Under the pieces are notes generated by a model, which saw nothing but the letters and a program-made list of their open reading frames with translations, was not told the origin of the DNA and ran no database searches. Both the position numbers and the translations under genes were made by a program. This document shows positions 16,939 through 39,552 of a stretch of DNA of 39,552 nucleotides, piece after piece. This stretch comes from Candidatus Bathyarchaeota archaeon (GTDB lineage Archaea > Thermoproteota > Bathyarchaeia > Bathyarchaeales > Bathycorpusculaceae), in the NCBI GenBank assembly GCA_018396875.1, contig JAGTQG010000009.1, positions 1 through 39,552 on the forward strand, in the 5' to 3' direction. Position 1 is the first letter of the stretch. Every line of letters begins with the position of its first letter.

Positions 16939-16958
16939 AGCGACAAAATTTTGTCGCT
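16939..16958. terminator. Perfect 20-bp palindrome at the end of the EF-2 paralogue
   Basis: AGCGACAAAATTTTGTCGCT is a perfect 20-bp palindrome. It starts within the stop codon of the leftward EF-2 paralogue and, in the transcript, is followed by TTTAACCC. It could form a short hairpin (GCGACA stem) acting as a terminator, or it could be a protein-binding site upstream of the kinase promoter. Confidence 0.45.
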
Positions 16959-19176
16959 ATTCTTCTTCGATGAACTCTTCTGGTTTTGGCGGTGTTGGCG
17001 GTAGACCTTTTCTTTCGCGGATTTGCCGTATCACGTCTGCCTGCATGGATTCGGGTACTGGTGCCCATCGGCTGAACTGGGTTGCCCAGAAGGCTCTGCC
17101 CTGTGTTGATGAGCGGAGTTCGTCGGCTATTCCGAATGATTCTGCCACTGGTAGTTCCGCTTTCACTATGACCATGTCTTCCTCGTTAACCATGTCAAGG
17201 ATTCTGCCCCTCCGCTTCTGCAACAGCGAAATCACTGGGCTGACGAAGTCGTTTGGCACCTTACACTCAAAGCTTAGAATAGGCTCCAAGAGCTTTGGCT
17301 CGCTTAGGAGGAAGGCTCCCCAAATAGGGCGCCACGTCATCGGCAGAATCTGGGCTGGGCCCCTGTGTACTGGATCCTCGTGGATTAGGATGTCTTCAAG
17401 GTTTACCTTAAGCCCGTACATGGGTTCTTTGGCTAGAACACCCGTCATGACGGCGTCGCGGAACCCGGACTTCACATGGTCTAATACTTCTTCAACATAT
17501 TGTCTGCCCTTAATCCTGTTAACCAGTATGTTTGTGCCCTCGATGGCAATCACGTTGCGGGCGTCTTCAGCTGACCAGCCAAACTCTTTCATGAGGATTT
17601 TCTGGCGTTCGTCGCGGGTTTGCATCTCATTAATCTTGCCCGTTTTGACGGCTTCTATAACCTCTTCTGGAAGCTTTTCAACGGTTACCCAAAGCCTGTT
17701 ATGCTTGTTTGGGCTTTTGCCCATAACCGGCGGGCCCTTGTAGTCGCGGCTTATGGTTTCACGGTAGATCACTATGGGCTTGCTCATTTTCACTTTTAGG
17801 CCAGCCTCTTGCATGCGGTAGGCTGTAACCTCTAAGTGGAGTTCGCCCATTCCGCTTAACAAGTATTGGCCGCTCTCCTTGTCTATCTTGAAGTGGAGGT
17901 TCGGGTCTTCAAGCGTGATCTTGTGGATAACCTTGTCGAAAAGCGGCAGGTCCTTAACGTTTTCAGGTTCAACGGCCACTGTGACGACGGGATCTGAAAC
18001 ATACTTTAAGGCTTCGAAGGGCACTGTTTCGACGCCTTCTTCGGCTATGGTTTCGCCCACGTGTATGGAAGGCAAACCCGACAATGCTGCAATGTTGCCG
18101 GCTGGAATCCGCTCAACGATAACTCTGTCGGTGGCCATGCTCATGTAAACCTGCTGTATCGTGCCTTTTTGTCGGCTTGTCACGAGGCGAACAACCTTGC
18201 CCTTCTCCACGGTGCCGCTGAAAACTCGCCCAATGGCGACGACGCCGCTGTGAGGATCCACCTCGATGAACGTGACACACATTAGCAAAGGCCCGTTGGG
18301 GTCAACTTTAGCCATGGCCTTGCCCGTTGGGCTGTTCGGGTCGCCTGGCCAGATTTGGCTCTGCCTGTAGGGCTGGGCCTCCAGGGGGCTTGGGAGATGT
18401 TCGCAGAACATGTCCAGTATCGGGTCGTAGACGGGTATGCGTTTGCTGAGAGCCTCCACCTTCCGTCCAACTTCTTCTGGTTCGCCTTGATAAGCCTCGA
18501 TTATTTCTTTGAAGGTTATGCCTTTTTCTTTCATGTGTGGTAGGTTTAAGCCCCACTTGTGAAGTGCCGAGCCAAAGGCAACGCGTCCATCTTCAACTTT
18601 AACCTGCCAGTCTTTCTTGTGCTCAGGTGGCGCATACTTCTCAATAATGGTGTTTATTCGTGTGATTATCCTTGCAAATCTTTTCTGTATTTCTTCTGGG
18701 GAAAGCTTCAGTTCGCGTATTAAACGGTCAACTTTGTTAATGAAAAGGATGGGTTTAACTCTCTCGCGGAGGGCTTGCATCAAAACAGTTTCAGTCTGAG
18801 TCATGGGGCCTTCAACAGCGTCCACAACCACTAAGGCGCCATCCACGGCTCTTAGGCTTCTGGTTACGTTTCCGCTGAAGTCTATGTGGCCGGGCGTGTC
18901 GATTAGGTTTATGAGGTAGTCGACGCCTTTGTAGGTGTGGACTAGGCTTATATTGGAGGCGAAAACTGTCATTTGCCTTTTTTGTTCAAGCTCCCAAGAG
19001 TCTAGGAAAAGCTTCTGGCCGGCGACTTGCTCGCTTATGATGCCAGCCGCCGCCAAAAGGCTGTCTGAGAGAGTGGTTTTTCCGTGGTCTACGTGTGCGA
19101 TGATGCTTGTGTTTCTTATCCGTTCCGTTTGAGTCATCAGTTTAACTATGTCTTCTATTTGCCTATAGCGTCCCAT
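16957..19176 (-). CDS. Elongation factor 2 paralogue with altered switch I
   Basis: Full-length archaeal EF-2 (739 residues), the translocation GTPase. G1 is AHVDHGKTT, G3 DTPGHIDF, G4 NKVD, G5 FGSALHKWG. In switch I the usual RGIT reads RQMT (EQKRQMTVFASNIS), so the Mg-coordinating Thr is kept but the preceding Gly-Ile is replaced. Domain IV keeps the diphthamide histidine in HEDPVHRGPAQI. The start MGRYRQIEDIVKLM matches family N-termini. It is divergently arranged with a second EF-2 gene whose switch I is canonical. Both have all five domains, so this is a true paralogue, not a fragment. Whether this or the other is the main translocase cannot be told from sequence. Confidence 0.92.
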   Translation of the reverse strand: MGRYRQIEDIVKLMTQTERIRNTSIIAHVDHGKTTLSDSLLAAAGIISEQVAGQKLFLDSWELEQKRQMTVFASNISLVHTYKGVDYLINLIDTPGHIDFSGNVTRSLRAVDGALVVVDAVEGPMTQTETVLMQALRERVKPILFINKVDRLIRELKLSPEEIQKRFARIITRINTIIEKYAPPEHKKDWQVKVEDGRVAFGSALHKWGLNLPHMKEKGITFKEIIEAYQGEPEEVGRKVEALSKRIPVYDPILDMFCEHLPSPLEAQPYRQSQIWPGDPNSPTGKAMAKVDPNGPLLMCVTFIEVDPHSGVVAIGRVFSGTVEKGKVVRLVTSRQKGTIQQVYMSMATDRVIVERIPAGNIAALSGLPSIHVGETIAEEGVETVPFEALKYVSDPVVTVAVEPENVKDLPLFDKVIHKITLEDPNLHFKIDKESGQYLLSGMGELHLEVTAYRMQEAGLKVKMSKPIVIYRETISRDYKGPPVMGKSPNKHNRLWVTVEKLPEEVIEAVKTGKINEMQTRDERQKILMKEFGWSAEDARNVIAIEGTNILVNRIKGRQYVEEVLDHVKSGFRDAVMTGVLAKEPMYGLKVNLEDILIHEDPVHRGPAQILPMTWRPIWGAFLLSEPKLLEPILSFECKVPNDFVSPVISLLQKRRGRILDMVNEEDMVIVKAELPVAESFGIADELRSSTQGRAFWATQFSRWAPVPESMQADVIRQIRERKGLPPTPPKPEEFIEEE

Positions 19177-19316: not shown

Positions 19317-19402
19317 AAAGCACAAGACTTTTAAGGCTACGTTAAACCTTGTCTCTTAACCGTTTGCTGATTGTCCAGAAGCCAAGCACCGGGGATTTTG
19401 TC

Positions 19403-21613
19403 TTGCCAAGGTTCCGGCAGACCAGCGAAATCCTCAAACTGATGCATAGGAAGGAGAATATTCGCAACATTGGCATAATAGCCCACATAGACCACGGCAA
19501 AACAACAATGACAGACTCACTTTTGGCAGAGGCAGGCTTGCTCTCGCCCAGAATCGCCGGCGAAGCCCGGGCTTTAGACTATTTGGAGGAGGAGCAAAAG
19601 CGCGGCATCACCATTAAGACGGCGAACATTTCGCTCTTACACGAGATTGGCGGACGCCCATACGTAATAAACTTGGTTGACACGCCGGGACACGTGGACT
19701 TCACGGGTAAGGTGACCCGAGCCTTAAGGGCTATTGACGGCGCGGTGGTTGTGGTTGACGCCGTCGAAGAGGTCATGGTGCAAACAGAAACCGTGACACG
19801 TCAAGCCTTAGAAGAAAGAGTGCGGCCAGTCCTATTCATCAACAAGGTTGACCGTTTGGTTAAGGAGTTGAGGCTTACGCCCAGCGAGATTCAAGAGAAG
19901 TTTTTGCGGATAATCCGCGACTTCAACAGCCTAATAGAGGTTTATGGCGAACCGGAGTTTAGGGACAGATGGAAGGTTGACCCGCAAAAGGAGACCGTGG
20001 CTTTTGGTTCAGCCCTCCATCGTTGGGGTTTCACGGTAAAAATAGCCCAAGAAAAAGGCGTAAAGTTCAGCGACATCATAGAAGCCTACAACAGCGGCGA
20101 ACACCAAAAGCTTGCGGAACTTATTCCACTGCATGACGCCATCCTAGACATGGTTGTCAAAAACGTTCCAAACCCAATTGAAGCGCAAAGGTATAGACTT
20201 CCAAAAATTTGGAAAGGCGAAATAAACTCCGAGGTTGGGCAGGCCATGCTGAACTGCGACGACAACGGACCGACGGTGATGTGCATAACAATGGCGCAGA
20301 TGGACCCCCACGCTGGACTCGTGGCAACTGGAAGGCTCTTCTCCGGCACTGTTAAGGAGGGCGACCAAGTTTATCTTGTGGGCGCCCGCAAAGACTACCG
20401 CATACAACAAGTCTCCATGTACATGGGTGCCTTCCGTGAAGTCGTCGACAAGATAACAGCCGGAAATATTGCTGCGCTTTTAGGCTTGGACCTGGCTAGG
20501 GCTGGCGAGACACTGGTGGACATAGCCCACAAAGACGTTATGGTGCCTTTCGAACGCATTAAATACGTTTCGGAGCCCGTTATAACCATAGCGGTTGAAC
20601 CCAAGCACCCTAAGGACTTGCCGCGTCTAGTGGAAGCCATGAACAGGCTTTCCATAGAAGACCCGAACCTTGTGGCAACTATAAACAGGGAGACTGGCGA
20701 ATACTTGTTAAGCGGAATGGGCGAGCTCCACCTTGAAATTGCCGTCAAGTTTTTGCAGGATTATGGTGGAGGCTTGGAGCTTATAACATCAAAACCCCTA
20801 GTCGTCTATCGGGAAAGCATCTCTGGAAAAGGCGAAACAGCCATGGCAAAAAGCCCAAACAGACATAACAGGTTCTGGGTTCAAGTTGAACCGCTCGAAG
20901 AGAAAGTCATAAACCTCATAGAAAAGGGCGAAATCACCGAAGAAATGGGACGAAAACAGATAGGCAACATGCTCTTCAAGGAGGCCGGCTGGCCCGCTGA
21001 AGAAGCAAGAAACGTTTGGGCCATAGACGAGCACCGCAACATTCTTGTAGACGTGACAAAAGGCGTGCAATACCTTCAAGAGGCAAGGGAAATGATAATT
21101 GCTGGCTTCAAGTGGGCATGCAGAGCTGGACCACTATGCGAAGAACCCATTCGCGGGATTAAAGTCAAACTTGTGGACGCTCAACTTCACGAGGATCCGG
21201 TGCATCGGGGTCCAGCCCAGATAATGCCAGCCATCCGCAGAGCCATACTGGGCTCGTTTTTGACGGCTAAGCCAGTTCTGCTTGAGCCGGTTTACCACAT
21301 CGACGTTTCAGTTCCAGCCCAGTGGGTCGGCGACTGCATAGAAATAATCACCAAAAAACGTGGTAAAATTTTGGCTTCGGAGCAGAAGGGCATTTTAACC
21401 GTTATTGATGGTTTGATTCCGGTTGCTGAAACCTTTGGCTTGTCGGCTGAAATGCGTTCAGCCACCTCTGGACACGCCTTTTGGCAGTGCGCCTTTAGCC
21501 ACTGGGAAAAGGTCCCAGAAAACATTGCCGCCGAAGTTATACGGCACATTCGTGAACGCAAAGGCTTGCCGCCTGAAACGCCCACATCAGACATGTTTAT
21601 TGATGAAGAGTGA
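19403..21613 (+). CDS. fusA: Elongation factor 2 (canonical copy)
   Basis: Archaeal EF-2, about 736 residues. G1 is AHIDHGKTT, switch I EQKRGITIKTANIS, G3 DTPGHVDF, G4 NKVDRLV, G5 FGSALHRWG. Domain IV carries the diphthamide histidine in HEDPVHRGPAQIMP. TTG 19403 is taken as start because it gives LPRFRQTSEILKLM, like family N-termini. An in-frame TTG at 19349 lies only about 15 bp after the TATA-like box (19329-19337), upstream of the expected transcript start. The stop overlaps the next gene's start (GTGA), so the glycosylase is cotranslated. All GTPase motifs are normal, so this is the better candidate for the housekeeping translocase. Confidence 0.93.
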   Translation: MPRFRQTSEILKLMHRKENIRNIGIIAHIDHGKTTMTDSLLAEAGLLSPRIAGEARALDYLEEEQKRGITIKTANISLLHEIGGRPYVINLVDTPGHVDFTGKVTRALRAIDGAVVVVDAVEEVMVQTETVTRQALEERVRPVLFINKVDRLVKELRLTPSEIQEKFLRIIRDFNSLIEVYGEPEFRDRWKVDPQKETVAFGSALHRWGFTVKIAQEKGVKFSDIIEAYNSGEHQKLAELIPLHDAILDMVVKNVPNPIEAQRYRLPKIWKGEINSEVGQAMLNCDDNGPTVMCITMAQMDPHAGLVATGRLFSGTVKEGDQVYLVGARKDYRIQQVSMYMGAFREVVDKITAGNIAALLGLDLARAGETLVDIAHKDVMVPFERIKYVSEPVITIAVEPKHPKDLPRLVEAMNRLSIEDPNLVATINRETGEYLLSGMGELHLEIAVKFLQDYGGGLELITSKPLVVYRESISGKGETAMAKSPNRHNRFWVQVEPLEEKVINLIEKGEITEEMGRKQIGNMLFKEAGWPAEEARNVWAIDEHRNILVDVTKGVQYLQEAREMIIAGFKWACRAGPLCEEPIRGIKVKLVDAQLHEDPVHRGPAQIMPAIRRAILGSFLTAKPVLLEPVYHIDVSVPAQWVGDCIEIITKKRGKILASEQKGILTVIDGLIPVAETFGLSAEMRSATSGHAFWQCAFSHWEKVPENIAAEVIRHIRERKGLPPETPTSDMFIDEE

Positions 21614-27955: not shown

Positions 27956-28050
27956 GCGGCCGTCGTCTAGTCTGGTTAGGACACAGCCGCCAAAACAGCG
28001 GTGGAAGCCTTCCAAGCCTGCGATCCCGGGTTCAAATCCCGGCGGCCGCA
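27956..28050 (+). tRNA. tRNA-Gly (TCC) with a 20-nt intron at position 29/30
   Basis: The acceptor GCGGCCG pairs with CGGCCGC, with discriminator A. The D arm is GTCT...GGAC and the T arm is CCGGG-TTCAAAT-CCCGG. The anticodon arm only folds when 27987-28006 is removed: CAG plus GC then forms CAGGC, which pairs perfectly with GCCTG around loop CTTCCAA (T33, anticodon TCC). The intron therefore sits in the anticodon stem, not at the usual 37/38. The last 19 bases overlap, antisense, the end of the MscS gene. Confidence 0.88.
27987..28006 (+). other. Predicted non-canonical tRNA intron (29/30)
   Basis: The 20-nt insert CCGCCAAAACAGCGGTGGAA splits the 5' strand of the anticodon stem. It can form its own small hairpin (CCGC/GCGG). 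I could not confirm a textbook bulge-helix-bulge around it, so the exact cut sites could shift, but this placement is the only one giving a perfect 5-bp stem. Confidence 0.65.
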
Positions 28051-28958
28051 CTAATTTCGTTTTGGATGAGGGTTCTATGCACCTTTATCATGTGTTTTAA
28101 GAGTTCTGAGCGGAACTCTCTGACTTTTGTGTTTGGCGGTGCTGTTGCCACAACTAGAACTATGTAGTAGTTTTTATCACTTTGTTCTTCAAGGTAAACC
28201 CTGTAGTCGCCGACATTATTTCTGTCAAACTCTTCTCGAATTTTTGATAACACTATGTCCGGATCGTATTGGACTGGAAACTCGTAGCGAACTCGCACGG
28301 TTTTTGGTTCCTCTTGCTCTTCCATAACGACGCTGTTGGTGAAGGCAATGTTGTTTGGGATTTTAACGAGTTCACCACTTTCAGACAATATTTTCGTGTG
28401 CATGAGGCCGACTTCAACTACGATGCCCCGCAGCGTCGGCATGTACTCGTCTCGGCTAAACATTTTGTAAGCTGGAAAAGCCAAGGGCGAAAGGGGCAAA
28501 CCTCCCGAAATCTTAACGTTTGCTCCAGGCTTGAGGAAACCGGTTCCAAGAATGATTAAGCCAGCGAATAGATTGGCTAAAACGGGCTGCAAGCCTAAAC
28601 CGATTACGAGTCCGGAAACGGTTGCGCCGGCGACGGCGCTTACGCCCGTAACTTCGAAGATGGCTAGCACTATGAGGCCTACGGCTACGTATCCCATTAC
28701 GACGACAACGTTTCGTATGAGGTAGACACCTCTGCCCAAATGTTTAAGCCTAACGGTTATAAGCGAAGCCACAAGCTCGATGGCTAATATGCCCAACATT
28801 ATAGCTGTTATCGCTCGGACAATATTGAAGTAGACAAGGTAGGTTTGGCGGAGCTCTTCGGGCAAAAGCCCCTGAATCGTTAGAGCCCAAAGTATGGCAA
28901 CCACAAAAACGATTATAGAGACATAGGTGACTCGCCAGCTTCGTTTCAAAGCTACCAC
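28032..28958 (-). CDS. MscS-family mechanosensitive channel
   Basis: A 308-residue membrane channel. Three hydrophobic N-terminal segments (about residues 10-32, 45-70, 80-105) precede a glycine/alanine-rich pore helix region (VSGLVIGLGLQPVLANLFAGL). A beta domain (LRGIVVEVGLMHTKIL, ELVKIPNNIAFTN) and a C-terminal alpha/beta domain follow. This is the MscS core that opens under membrane tension. GTG 28958 is the start. The last residues (ISAAAGI and stop) are read antisense from the 3' end of tRNA-Gly, so the channel's C-terminus is made from tRNA sequence. Confidence 0.9.
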   Translation of the reverse strand: MVALKRSWRVTYVSIIVFVVAILWALTIQGLLPEELRQTYLVYFNIVRAITAIMLGILAIELVASLITVRLKHLGRGVYLIRNVVVVMGYVAVGLIVLAIFEVTGVSAVAGATVSGLVIGLGLQPVLANLFAGLIILGTGFLKPGANVKISGGLPLSPLAFPAYKMFSRDEYMPTLRGIVVEVGLMHTKILSESGELVKIPNNIAFTNSVVMEEQEEPKTVRVRYEFPVQYDPDIVLSKIREEFDRNNVGDYRVYLEEQSDKNYYIVLVVATAPPNTKVREFRSELLKHMIKVHRTLIQNEISAAAGI

Positions 28959-29462: not shown

Positions 29463-30353
29463 GTGTTATGCTTGCACTTACCCGTCATGAAAGATGAAGT
29501 CATCCGCTTTCTCGACCCTAAGCCCGGCGAAAATTTTATTGACTGCACCGTGGGTTTGGGCGGCCACGCCTTGGCCATCCTAGAGCGGAACAAGCCGAAT
29601 GGAAAGGTTTTAGGCGTTGACTATGACCCGCAAATTCTGGAAGAGCTTAAGCGCAAAGTGCATGGAACCGAGTTCGAGAAGCGCCTTGTTCTTGTCTGCG
29701 ATAATTTCGCCAACTTGGAGGCTATCGCCGAAAAACATGGTTTCACTAGCGTTTCTGGTGTGCTTTTTGATTTGGGGCTTTCAAGCTGGCATTTGGAGGC
29801 AAGTGGGCGGGGCTTCTCGTTTTGGAGAGGCGAGCCGCTTGACATGAGGTATAATCCACAGTTAAACGCTTTAACCGCTGAGGCTATCTTAAACACTTGG
29901 AGCCTCAAGGACATTGAGCGAATCTTGAGGGTTTACGGTGAGGAACGCTTTTCCAGACGGATAGCCAAGGAAATCGTCGAGTCTAGGCCTCTGCGAACCA
30001 CCGTAGATTTGGTTATGGCTGTGGAGAGGGCAACACCCCCATGGTACCATCGCCGCCGCATCCACTTTGCAACAAAAACCTTCCAAGCCCTTCGGGTAGC
30101 CGTCAACAACGAACTAGAAAACTTGGAGAAAGCCTTACCCCAAGCCTTAAACGTGCTTCGTAGCGGCGGAAAACTCGTTGTGATTGCCTTTCACTCGCTG
30201 GAAGACCGCGTAGTCAAAAACTTCATGCGGGCTAAAGCCAAAGAAGGTGTCGTGAAAATTTTGACGAAAAAGCCTATGAGGCCTTCGGAAAAAGAGGTTG
30301 TGGAGAACCCTAAAGCTAGGTCAGCAAGGCTGAGAGTTGCGGTAAAAGTTTAG
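29463..30353 (+). CDS. rsmH: 16S rRNA (cytosine-N4) methyltransferase RsmH-like
   Basis: Complete MraW/RsmH family protein (296 residues). It has HLPVMKDEV, the SAM motif DCTVGLGGHALAIL, FDLGLSSWHLEASGRGFSFW, LDMRYNP, the KTFQALRVAVNNELENLEKA segment, AFHSLEDRVVKNFM and the ending NPKARSARLRVA. In bacteria this enzyme methylates N4 of C1402 in the decoding centre of 16S rRNA. RsmH is a near-universal bacterial gene and not a usual archaeal one, so lateral origin is likely. It is not next to cell-division genes as in bacteria. GTG 29463 is the start. Substrate in this organism is inferred. Confidence 0.9.
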   Translation: MLCLHLPVMKDEVIRFLDPKPGENFIDCTVGLGGHALAILERNKPNGKVLGVDYDPQILEELKRKVHGTEFEKRLVLVCDNFANLEAIAEKHGFTSVSGVLFDLGLSSWHLEASGRGFSFWRGEPLDMRYNPQLNALTAEAILNTWSLKDIERILRVYGEERFSRRIAKEIVESRPLRTTVDLVMAVERATPPWYHRRRIHFATKTFQALRVAVNNELENLEKALPQALNVLRSGGKLVVIAFHSLEDRVVKNFMRAKAKEGVVKILTKKPMRPSEKEVVENPKARSARLRVAVKV

Positions 30354-36930: not shown

Positions 36931-37149
36931 ACGAACACGAAAATTGCAGAAACCTTAGATTTGCTGTCGGACGGAAAATGGCACACGATAAAGGAGCTTC
37001 GAGAGAACGTCAAGCTTGAACCGAGGCGATTTGAAGCTTTAATGAAGTTTTTGGAGGATTATGGTTTCATAGTCGTGGACGCTGCAAAGGGTACTGTGAA
37101 GCTTAACGAAGGTTTACGTAGACTCTCTTTTCAAGAGGCTAGCCCATAA
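36931..37149 (+). CDS. Small winged-helix DNA-binding protein (start unclear)
   Basis: About 72 residues with a winged-helix pattern: TKIAETLDLLSDGKWHTIKE, then RRFEALMKFLEDYGFIVVD and a beta wing (GTVKLNEGLRRL). The frame is clearly meaningful back to 36931, where an ACG stands where ATG would be expected (xNTKIAETLDLL), 6 nt after GGGGGA and about 25 bp after a TATAGTATAT stretch. The first ordinary start is TTG 36961, which would cut off the first helix. Either a non-standard start, a lost start codon, or a sequencing error. Its end overlaps the next convergent gene by 11 bp. Confidence 0.6.
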   Translation, partial: TNTKIAETLDLLSDGKWHTIKELRENVKLEPRRFEALMKFLEDYGFIVVDAAKGTVKLNEGLRRLSFQEASP

Positions 37150-37411
37150 GCCTAAGTAAGCTCTTGTAGGCTTGCAGAAAGCGCTCCCCCTTGCTTGTGA
37201 TTTTGAAGGTGCATGGGTCACCGTCAACATGGCATAGAAGTTTTCTTTCAAGCAGAAAACCCAAATAGTGTTCCACTTGTTTAAAGCTTAGATTGCAACG
37301 ATACATCAACTGGGTCTTCCGAACTTTCCTGCGAGAAGCTTCCAAAATATCCGATATTATGTCTAGACGTCCTCGATGGCTATTGCCGGAGCTTTTGTTA
37401 ACTGCCATCAA
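37139..37411 (-). CDS. Winged-helix protein (HTH_45-like)
   Basis: A 90-residue archaeal winged-helix DNA-binding protein: DIISDILEASRRKVRKTQLM, then YRCNLSFKQVEHYLGFLLER and the wing LLCHVDGDPCTFKITSKGERFL. The KTQLMYxCNLSxxQ...YLxFL pattern is typical of pfam14947 (HTH_45), very common in archaea. Probably a transcription factor with unknown target. It is tail-to-tail with the preceding small winged-helix gene, with 11 bp shared. Confidence 0.85.
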   Translation of the reverse strand: MMAVNKSSGNSHRGRLDIISDILEASRRKVRKTQLMYRCNLSFKQVEHYLGFLLERKLLCHVDGDPCTFKITSKGERFLQAYKSLLRLMG

Positions 37412-37531: not shown

Positions 37532-37930
37532 CTAAAATTGGCTAAGCCTCTTCAAAATTTTATCGAGGTCGGCGTTTTTCTCCATGAAAACGCTTATTTT
37601 GTTGTCGCCGACCGTGAGGGATAAAATCCTAGTTTCTTTTCCTTCTATGAGAATGTTTTTGACTTCGCCTAAGCTGAAGGTTTCTGAGAGTTCTTCGGCT
37701 GCTTCAAGAGCCGAGGATGAGAGGATGGCGTATTCTATGAGTTTTGACGGATCTTTGAGGTCTATGGCTGCGGAGGTTGAGTTTCGGAGGATGTAGCCAA
37801 TGACTCCTTCATAATTCTTAACTTCTTCAAGGCTTGTTCTAAGGTGGTCTGTGGGCGTCATTCCTTCCATGACTATGGTTGGGCTTTCTGCAGCAACGGC
37901 ATCCTCCACAGCTTTCCTTTTCTTGGTCAT
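37532..37930 (-). CDS. Roadblock/LC7-like protein
   Basis: A 132-residue protein. After a short disordered N-terminus the fold EVKNYEGVIGYILRNSTSAA, IEYAILSSSALEAAEELSET, LGEVKNILIEGKETRI, DNKISVFMEKNADLDKILKR shows the beta-helix-beta-beta-helix order of roadblock/LC7 domains, which in MglB-like proteins regulate small GTPases. ATG 37930 has GGAGG upstream and is preferred to a start at 37951. It is the last gene of a three-gene operon with another roadblock-type protein and a coiled-coil protein; no GTPase gene is in the window. Confidence 0.75.
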   Translation of the reverse strand: MTKKRKAVEDAVAAESPTIVMEGMTPTDHLRTSLEEVKNYEGVIGYILRNSTSAAIDLKDPSKLIEYAILSSSALEAAEELSETFSLGEVKNILIEGKETRILSLTVGDNKISVFMEKNADLDKILKRLSQF

Positions 37931-37943
37931 GGTATCGCCTCCA

Positions 37944-38813
37944 TCATTCAATTATGGGTTTTACTTTCACAAGTTCCCCCTTCTTGATTTCGAGGGCAAG
38001 CTGCGCTTTTTCCGGAATTTGAACAATTCCCTTGCCCTCGTACTTTGAGTCTTTTATGGGTTTGACCTTGTAGCGGGCTGTTTTTCCGTCAAAGGTTTCG
38101 ATTTCAACATACTCTATCTTCTTGCCCTCGAACATGCTTTCCCAGTTGGATATGGTTTCGCCGTCAATCCTTACAGTGTCAGATGGGACAAGTAGCCCGC
38201 CGATGTTTTCCACTATAAGCTGAACGGCTGGAACCTCGAAGGACTGTGAAAGTTCTTGGAAGGTTTCGGGAGCGGGAGTGATGCTGGTTTCTGGTTTATG
38301 TTCCTTCATTTCTATTCTGAACTCTTCAGAAGGTTTCTCAACAGACGCTTCCTCGGCGGGTTTTTCCAACTTTAGAGTTTTAGTTTCCAGTTCAGGTTCA
38401 TGGGCGAGTGGAGTCGGAGGGGTCACGTTTTTGAGGGGGGTAGGGCTGAGCTTTTCTAACACTTTTAGAACCGTTGGAACTAAGACGCGGACTAACGTGT
38501 CCACGTAGCCCACATCGGCTTTTGCGGAGTAAACTATGACGAAGTAATGTTCATTGAAGTGGTGAAGTTTAACCGTGCCCATGCTGCCTTTCAGGGTTAC
38601 GGATTCCACGCCGCCTATGGCTTCAGCCCTTTCAAAAATGCCGTTAAAAGTGTTTGCAACGTGGATCATGACCTTTTGCGGAGTACCGTCGTCTCCGACG
38701 ACTATTTCGCCGTTCTCTCTGTAAACGAAGGCGTGTTGAATGTCTGGGCAGATGTTTCGCATTTCCTCTAGGACGTTTTTTAAGGCTGTTGTGTAGACTT
38801 CGCTATAATCCAT
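37944..38813 (-). CDS. Roadblock-like domain fused to a C-terminal beta-barrel-like domain
   Basis: A 289-residue protein in three parts. Residues 1-120 are roadblock-like (IQHAFVYRENGEIVVGDDG, GGVESVTLKGSMGTVKLHHF, HYFVIVYSAKADVGYVDT). Residues about 125-195 are a Pro/Glu/Thr-rich linker, likely disordered. Residues about 200-289 are beta-rich (LIVENIGGLLVPSDTVRIDG, GKTARYKVKPIKDSKYEG, GIVQIPEKAQLALEIKKGEL), resembling a small barrel. ATG 38813 has AAGGTG upstream. No exact family recognised. Its 3' neighbour is another roadblock protein 13 bp away and its 5' neighbour a coiled-coil protein, indicating a complex. Confidence 0.7.
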   Translation of the reverse strand: MDYSEVYTTALKNVLEEMRNICPDIQHAFVYRENGEIVVGDDGTPQKVMIHVANTFNGIFERAEAIGGVESVTLKGSMGTVKLHHFNEHYFVIVYSAKADVGYVDTLVRVLVPTVLKVLEKLSPTPLKNVTPPTPLAHEPELETKTLKLEKPAEEASVEKPSEEFRIEMKEHKPETSITPAPETFQELSQSFEVPAVQLIVENIGGLLVPSDTVRIDGETISNWESMFEGKKIEYVEIETFDGKTARYKVKPIKDSKYEGKGIVQIPEKAQLALEIKKGELVKVKPIIE

Positions 38814-38841
38814 GAATTTTCACCTTCTATGGCTGAAACTG

Positions 38842-39267
38842 CTAGGTTATTTTGAAGAGGATGCGCTCCGGCACACCGTCGTTCTCAACAACGATGTACT
38901 TTAAGCCTTCAGTGTCGCCAAGCTGGTCAAGCCACTTCAGGGCTTCGCGGGCTTTCTGCAAAACTAGAAGCCTCTCCTGATAGCTGCGCACCACCTGTTC
39001 GATAGCTGTCAACTCGTGGAATGGGTTGGCATCCAAAACAATGCTCAGGTTGCCGATGGTAATTTCGCCTAAGCTTTCGGCAGCCGTCTTCTTGCCCGCC
39101 AACTTCATGACCACCTCGCGGATTTTCTTGGATTTTTCGGCTAAAGCCCTAATCTCGTCCAGGCGGCGCAGATACTCACCCAACGTACTTTTAGTCTCAG
39201 CAATCTGCTTCTCCAAGTTTTCGGCTATATCTTCAGCCGAAGCATACTCCTTTAACTCAACCACCAT
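38842..39267 (-). CDS. Coiled-coil protein of the roadblock operon
   Basis: A 141-residue protein. Residues 8-60 form a coiled coil (AENLEKQIAETKSTLGEYL, RRLDEIRALAEKSKKIREVV). A short beta unit follows (SLGEITIGNLSIVLDANP), then a second helix (AIEQVVRSYQERLLVLQKAREAL) and a small C-terminal strand pair (KYIVVENDGVPERILFKI). ATG 39267 follows a strong GGAGGTG. No family recognised. It is the first gene of the three-gene operon, 28 bp before the roadblock-barrel gene. Confidence 0.7.
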   Translation of the reverse strand: MVVELKEYASAEDIAENLEKQIAETKSTLGEYLRRLDEIRALAEKSKKIREVVMKLAGKKTAAESLGEITIGNLSIVLDANPFHELTAIEQVVRSYQERLLVLQKAREALKWLDQLGDTEGLKYIVVENDGVPERILFKIT

Positions 39268-39376: not shown

Positions 39377-39552
39377 CTATGAACTCGGAGCAGTCTCTGT
39401 CCTTAAGAACGTGTTTCCTTTTGAGCTAACCAGTTTAACTTCGTAGTTAGCGCCATTCTGCCATGTATACTGGAACGATAGATATTTCACTTCATTAGCA
39501 CCAACGGTGAGTGGCAGAGCTGGTGAGGTGTTACCAGTGAACTTCTGTCCGT
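39377..39552 (-). CDS. C-terminus of a pilin/archaellin-like protein (5' end outside window)
   Basis: A leftward frame enters from the right edge and ends at TAG 39377-39379. The 57 visible residues read GQKFTGNTSPALPLTVGANE, then VKYLSFQYTWQNGANYEVKL and VSSKGNTFLRTETAPSS. The YEVKLVSSKGNTF ending with a short Thr/Ala/Pro tail is typical of archaeal type IV pilin and archaellin-like beta domains. The N-terminal class III signal peptide that would confirm this lies beyond the window. Confidence 0.65.
   Translation of the reverse strand, partial: GQKFTGNTSPALPLTVGANEVKYLSFQYTWQNGANYEVKLVSSKGNTFLRTETAPSS

Follow-up and report, generated by a model that had tools for sequence, protein, structure and literature searches.

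In this work, we propose that three adjacent genes of a Bathyarchaeia genome, here named A, B and C, are the central part of a cassette of five genes devoted to a single type IV pilus (T4P) of these archaea, a reading which, taken as a whole and together with its proposed mechanism, we hold at a probability of about 0.55. The succession of genes that recurs across the taxonomic order is a winged-helix gene (H3), a pilin gene (P), A, B and C. That the cassette is associated with a type IV pilus is highly probable from its co-occurrence and neighbourhoods. The detailed mechanism, in which a roadblock platform, an adaptor, a barrel and H3 each have a part, is tentative, and we do not expect every piece of it to hold.

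Organisation of the locus

The window, that is the whole 39,552-nucleotide stretch of DNA that was analysed, is contig C41 of a draft genome (G000; 1.25 Mb, 93.8% complete) whose named relatives are Candidatus Bathyarchaeota. Its relevant features are the following:

39377..39552, minus strand: 3′ end of the type IV pilin gene P (57 aa inside the window, the remainder past the contig end)
38842..39267, minus strand: gene A, a 141 aa helical-hairpin (coiled-coil) protein, near-invariant across the order
37944..38813, minus strand: gene B, 289 aa, with predicted roadblock domain, disordered linker and double-psi beta barrel of the CDC48-N type
~38445-38813 (residues 1-123), minus strand: roadblock domain of B, from the model and structure matches
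~37947-38231 (residues 195-289), minus strand: double-psi barrel of B, from the model and structure matches
37532..37930, minus strand: gene C, roadblock/LC7 protein (132 aa from ATG 37930; 139 aa from TTG 37951)
37139..37411, minus strand: H5, winged-helix, Sso10a-like gene downstream of C, often but not always adjoining
36961..37149, plus strand: H6, small convergent putative winged-helix gene, a frequent neighbour with sub-threshold Pfam HTH matches only

As the original prediction stated, the three genes are separated by short gaps (28 bp between A and B, 13 bp between B and C) and have strong ribosome sites, purine-rich motifs being found before each start (GGAGGTG for A, AAGGTGA for B and GGAGGCGA for C). 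The start of C is probably ATG 37930, which matches the starts of its relatives. The pilin-like gene that had also been noticed upstream of A is indeed there, as a remnant ORF (39377-39550) truncated by the contig end; full-length relatives of P start with an archaeal pilin N-terminus, the same-genus copy reaching 20.6 bits against Pfam Pilin_N, below the cut-off of 25.2. The winged-helix-like H3 gene of this genome is located on contig C11 (25943-26278), where it faces outward 32 bp from the contig end at 26310. Since P is cut by the end of C41 and H3 lies at the end of C11, the contig break probably falls inside the cassette. On the other side, H5 matches Pfam HTH_45 (66.7 bits) and NCBIfam Sso10a_fam (70.4 bits). 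Across 45 cassette loci (the window plus L032-L075), the H5 family is present in 19 and the H6 family in 17, and the membership of H6 in the cassette is uncertain.

Elsewhere in the window, we found a full-length gene for an MraW/RsmH-type 16S rRNA methyltransferase, a mainly bacterial family (29463-30353, plus strand; Pfam Methyltransf_5, 323.6 bits). Two divergent elongation factor 2 genes adjoin each other (16957-19176, minus strand, and 19349-21613, plus strand; 739 and 754 aa), both with all EF-G/EF-2 Pfam domains; they are possibly EF-2 and an EF-2 paralogue. A tRNA-like gene predicted by ARAGORN at 27956-28051 on the plus strand has an undefined anticodon ('aa') and is perhaps intron-bearing or spurious.

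Conservation and distribution of the cassette

Gene order was counted over 58 loci with B (8 duplicate loci dropped, two genomes counted twice), 40 long loci having been chosen by hand for spread and long contigs. P precedes A in all 44 testable loci, A precedes B in 48/56 when a strict rule is applied, C follows B in 53/57, and H3 lies upstream, within 2.6 kb, in 32 of 35. The exceptions are of three sorts: automatic starts that overlap (3), copies that are secondary or decayed, and a single truncated A. Indeed, among the loci where A is missed (L016, L023, L061, L062, L064, L069, L074 and L075), the first three do possess A, which is overlapped by the automatic start of B; C is missed in L061, L064, L074 and L075, and H3 in L047, L048 and L049. 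The genes flanking the cassette vary between groups; in genus g48, a MinD/ParA-like ATPase gene with a small partner gene lies a few kb away (L056:2352-3541, L057:2228-3423, L068:14253-15427).

The three genes are all under purifying selection, as measured by dN/dS between near relatives with unsaturated synonymous sites: 0.013-0.035 for A (5 comparisons), 0.146-0.208 for B (6 comparisons) and 0.170-0.280 for C (5 comparisons). Identity to the window copy is 68-97% for A (26 relatives across the order), far above that of B (28-71%, 31 relatives) and C (34-70%, 29 relatives). With such values, A is constrained in the way that core machinery is. Together with the conserved gene order, the selection acting on all three genes argues that the A-B-C arrangement is more than chance. 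Thus, the linkage of the predicted three-gene unit is kept, but its extent has to be revised, since the conserved unit also takes in P and the upstream H3.

B is found in 90/162 genomes of the order and A proper in the same number, that is 93 matches minus three genomes having a longer paralogue only (G011, G082 and G152); among these are broken copies (G079, G116) as well as fragments at contig edges. Both genes occur together in 89 genomes. The cassette is not a feature of all Bathyarchaeia, a possibility ruled out by the lack of any A match in family f5 and in 20/32 genomes of genus g5. Outside the order, A matches were obtained in 57 genomes of a 398-genome phylum sample, with 24-36% identity for the twelve homologues from other Thermoproteota that were aligned. 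In the same sample, B yields two weak matches to its roadblock part (E 4.5e-4 and 5.5e-4), and C gives eight weak matches (E 3.3e-6 to 6.8e-4) in a 384-genome sample.

Predicted structures of A, B and C

The presence of two roadblock proteins, anticipated by the original prediction, is supported by the Pfam Robl_LC7 family for C (26.9 bits for a cut-off of 23) and by the modelled fold for B. In agreement with the former, the profile of C retrieves roadblock proteins among sequences of solved structures. No Pfam family matches B over its cut-off, and PF03259 gives no match at E up to 1; its profile shows a weak kinship with C over the roadblock part (hhalign probability 14.5%, E 0.0019) and weak matches to double-psi barrel and roadblock sequences of solved structures. 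The AlphaFold2 model of B (mean pLDDT 80.5, roadblock and barrel mostly above 90) displays in order a helix, two strands, a helix, three strands and a helix, then a disordered linker and a barrel, so that by its modelled secondary structure the N-terminus has a roadblock fold. Residues 1-128 match MglB, Asgard roadblock proteins and Ragulator subunits, the best match being MglB (6h5b_C; Z 14.5, 2.3 Å over 116 residues). As for the C-terminal barrel that had been predicted, residues ~190-288 of the model match a VCP-like double-psi barrel (7dg9; Z 13.9, 1.8 Å over 88 residues, 24% identity), and the B C-terminus is, as modelled, a double-psi barrel of the CDC48/VCP-N type. A PRC barrel was also considered and is ruled out, the structure matches being double-psi barrels. 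A Pfam search over the 289 residues found no AAA ATPase domain in B.

The predicted coiled coil corresponds to A, whose model (pLDDT 74) is a helical hairpin flanked by beta strands: a strand, a 46-residue helix, a small hairpin, a 33-residue helix and two strands. Structural comparison of A retrieves only generic helical hairpins (Z 8-9), Foldseek returned no match at E 0.001 or better, and the comparison of its profile with sequences of solved structures gave nothing convincing. Neither A nor B has a DNA-binding match in Pfam or NCBIfam. Altogether, both points on which the original prediction hung are upheld, the roadblock fold being present and the three-gene linkage conserved.

Bathyarchaeia also have a second A-like family, a longer paralogue of about 180 aa (177-183 aa), found at L122:5796-6329, L123:5567-6115, L124:5689-6240 and L125:5839-6390. 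It lies near a different T4P motor gene in 4/6 stretches (L124, L125, L175 and L176, the last two chosen knowing that such a gene was near, and not L122 or L123). Another uncharacterised protein precedes it in L122, L123 and L125.

Association with type IV pilus systems

The genome harbours three T2SSF-type systems. The first is a two-chain Tad-like system (C1; L130), the second a single-chain system with a 567 aa platform, a 542 aa ATPase and a 986 aa secreted beta-helix/PKD/Ig-domain protein (C8), and the third a second single-chain type (C15). Orthologues of the C8-type platform, taken at E 1e-130 or better, a cut chosen after viewing the list, occur in 93/162 genomes. A and this platform are both present in 77 genomes and both absent from 56, with 13 having A only and 16 the platform only (p 1.2e-16). 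Across the order, A is also correlated with the Tad system (70 both, 20 A only, 15 Tad only, 57 neither; p 2.6e-13). Within genus g5, A follows the single-chain platform (12 both, 0 A only, 2 platform only, 18 neither; p 4e-7), but its strong order-wide correlation with the two-chain Tad platform vanishes (1 both, 11 A only, 0 Tad only, 20 neither; p 0.38), so that the Tad-like machine was rejected as main partner. All these p-values are optimistic because genomes share ancestry and are not independent samples. Genomes with only one of the two count against the association: several of the 13 A-bearing genomes without a platform orthologue are incomplete, but G087 and G092 are 95-96% complete, and the 16 platform genomes without A include four that are 90-97% complete (G010, G057, G069 and G094). 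In favour of it, the A gene of G079, a genome lacking any T2SSF match, is interrupted by a stop.

The secreted protein of 986 aa (beta-helix, PKD, Ig-like) precedes the single-chain T4P ATPase gene (L147:3646-6606) and is likely an adhesin or a surface part of the pilus system. The two-chain Tad-like operon has next to it a gene for a TackOD1 zinc-domain protein (PF18551, 131.6 bits; L130:2557-3540), and a neighbour of this type has been reported for thaumarchaeal pilus loci (PMC5847659).

Neither a T2SSE ATPase nor a T2SSF platform is encoded in the window. Among the 45 cassette loci, the single-chain ATPase-platform-pilin operon lies divergently beside H3 in four (G028, G031, G022 and G029), all of family f4, and a pilus motor operon is beside the cassette in 0/37 non-f4 loci. 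Since the ATPase and platform genes are mostly not at the cassette locus, the latter is an accessory cassette and not a complete pilus locus. The same operon adjoins the cassette in the f4 genomes G023 and G017, and an extra A copy in G048; these three stretches were fetched because the platform was known to be near, and L172 to L176, likewise fetched because a platform had already been seen nearby, are outside the 4/45 figure. The neighbourhood survey for pilus genes proposed by the original prediction thus uncovered a pilin in the unit itself and a T4P operon adjoining it in f4 loci.

Outside the order, 28 stretches were fetched from the 57 A-matching genomes (16, then 12 new). A pilus ATPase or platform gene is near A in 11 of them and 17 have no pilus motor gene; compared with the 0/37 non-f4 cassette loci, used as internal background, this gives p 2.4e-5. 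In L107, A is followed by the ATPase and the platform, and in L121, A, a large secreted protein, the ATPase and the platform are successive on one strand. Genes beside two further distant A copies (L111:5339-6271, L113:5001-5873) have no Pfam match.

Proposed role and alternative explanations

Roadblock domains dimerise and assemble into heteromeric platforms, through which NTPases, in most cases small GTPases, are regulated (PMC9481161, PMC10933270, PMC4316618). We can propose the following role for the cassette. The pilus served would be the one built by the single-chain platform (~567 aa) and its T2SSE ATPase. B and C would associate by way of their roadblock domains, forming a cytoplasmic platform that controls the pilus motor or its docking, while A would be a conserved hairpin adaptor contacting the ATPase or the platform; the double-psi barrel of B, carried on a flexible linker, would bind a client or a ligand, and H3 would set expression. 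The gene order, the modelled folds of B, the family of C, the co-occurrence with this pilus system and the linkage to it in family f4 are observations, whereas we infer the pairing of B with C, the adaptor role of A, the binding by the barrel and the part of H3.

It may be asked whether the pilin is simply a passenger or client of A-B-C proteins that serve another conserved process, such as envelope biogenesis, secretion or division. A is conserved like core machinery and the cassette is usually apart from the pilus motor operon, as would be expected for such a general scaffold. Nonetheless, the cassette and the platform are jointly missing in 18/32 genomes of genus g5, where the cassette is thus dispensable, the pilin adjoins A in every testable locus, and distant A homologues lacking B and C are also near pilus motor genes; we find this explanation quite improbable. 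The scaffold for membrane, division or motility machinery of the original prediction stands as regards motility-type surface machinery, to which the cassette is linked, but no sign of a division role was found. It seems equally hard to credit that the winged-helix neighbours, B and C relay a signal that sets pilin expression and leaves the motor untouched. This would account for the frequent presence of H3 upstream and of the Sso10a-like H5 downstream, and the output domain of an archaeal response regulator was reported in one case to be roadblock-related (PMC5847659). Yet A and B have no DNA-binding match in the families searched, and distant A homologues accompany the ATPase and the platform, not winged-helix regulators.

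The closeness of the B roadblock to MglB raises another possibility, namely that B and C together would act as a GAP/GEF platform on a small GTPase of the MglA or Rag kind with its gene elsewhere, the GTPase then positioning or switching the pilus. Small GTPases are indeed the targets of MglB and of other roadblock complexes, and in Myxococcus, MglA promotes the assembly of T4P (PMC9481161). However, searches for the Ras (PF00071) and Roc (PF08477) families gave no match over cut-off in the 93.8% complete draft genome, when the Ras model passes its cut-off in 12/14 control genomes, and no GTPase gene is recurrent among the frequent neighbours of the cassette. The missing GTPase had been noted originally for the immediate surroundings, and extends to the draft genome for these two families. 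We consider such a switch unlikely, and on present evidence a Ras-type GTPase would be dispensable for the cassette. Since the genome has no Ras or Roc match over cut-off, the pilus motor ATPase is the simplest target for the roadblock platform.

A broader version of the direct control of the motor by the cassette can be envisaged, although we regard it as rather doubtful. A could be a core cofactor of T4P motors across Thermoproteota, docking on the hexameric T2SSE ATPase in a FliJ/YscO-like manner, and would be coupled in Bathyarchaeia to a GTPase-free roadblock pair, one member of which has a CDC48-N-like barrel recruiting or sensing clients; roadblock control would then act directly on the ATPase, possibly an older use than Ras-type switches. 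The usual view of roadblock proteins is that they partner small GTPases and foreshadow the regulators of membrane traffic in eukaryotes. A pilus-tied cassette with two roadblock proteins, in a genome without a Ras or Roc match over cut-off, offers a concrete case in which to study what roadblock platforms may do in the absence of such a GTPase. It also provides a functional hypothesis for A, at a time when many cytoplasmic pilus-linked genes of Thermoproteota have no known role.

Comparison with known systems

Several known systems share features with the cassette. In Myxococcus xanthus, MglB, MglC and RomY/MglB are roadblock regulators of T4P and gliding polarity; MglB is the closest structure to the B roadblock domain, and MglC is a second roadblock paralogue (PMC7949163). 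These Mgl proteins act on the small GTPase MglA, whereas the cassette genome has no GTPase match for the families searched and B has a barrel in addition. Ragulator (LAMTOR) and the Asgard roadblock proteins, which are dimeric platforms, have the same fold as B and C, but they belong to a context of membrane traffic and Rag GTPases, with neither a pilus link nor additional domains like those of B. The C-terminal fold of B is that of the CDC48/VCP N-terminal double-psi barrel; unlike CDC48/VCP, B has no AAA domain and only the first subdomain type.

A is a hairpin similar in size to FliJ/YscO, and genome context associates it with a secretion-type ATPase, but it differs from them by the beta strands at its ends. 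The scores of A against YscO (4mh6, Z 8.1) and FliJ (Pfam match, E 0.042) are both within the range of unrelated coiled coils, so that this likeness is a lead only.

The nearest precedent is the roadblock protein arCOG02603, encoded with archaeal T4P genes (Makarova, Koonin and Albers 2016; PMC4858521). Its loci resemble the cassette in associating a roadblock protein with type IV pilus genes in archaea, but the passage concerned describes a single arCOG, with no second roadblock protein, double-psi barrel fusion or A-like partner. In the literature searched, including the text of PMC4858521, we found no description of the cassette, of the B fusion or of a role for A; the word Bathyarchaeota has 0 occurrences in that text, and the A family may stand unnamed in the supplementary tables (191 linked arCOGs). 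Altogether, archaeal T4P associated with a roadblock protein were already known, and what seems new here, within the literature searched, is a form with two roadblock proteins, one of them fused to a barrel, that is apparently free of a GTPase.
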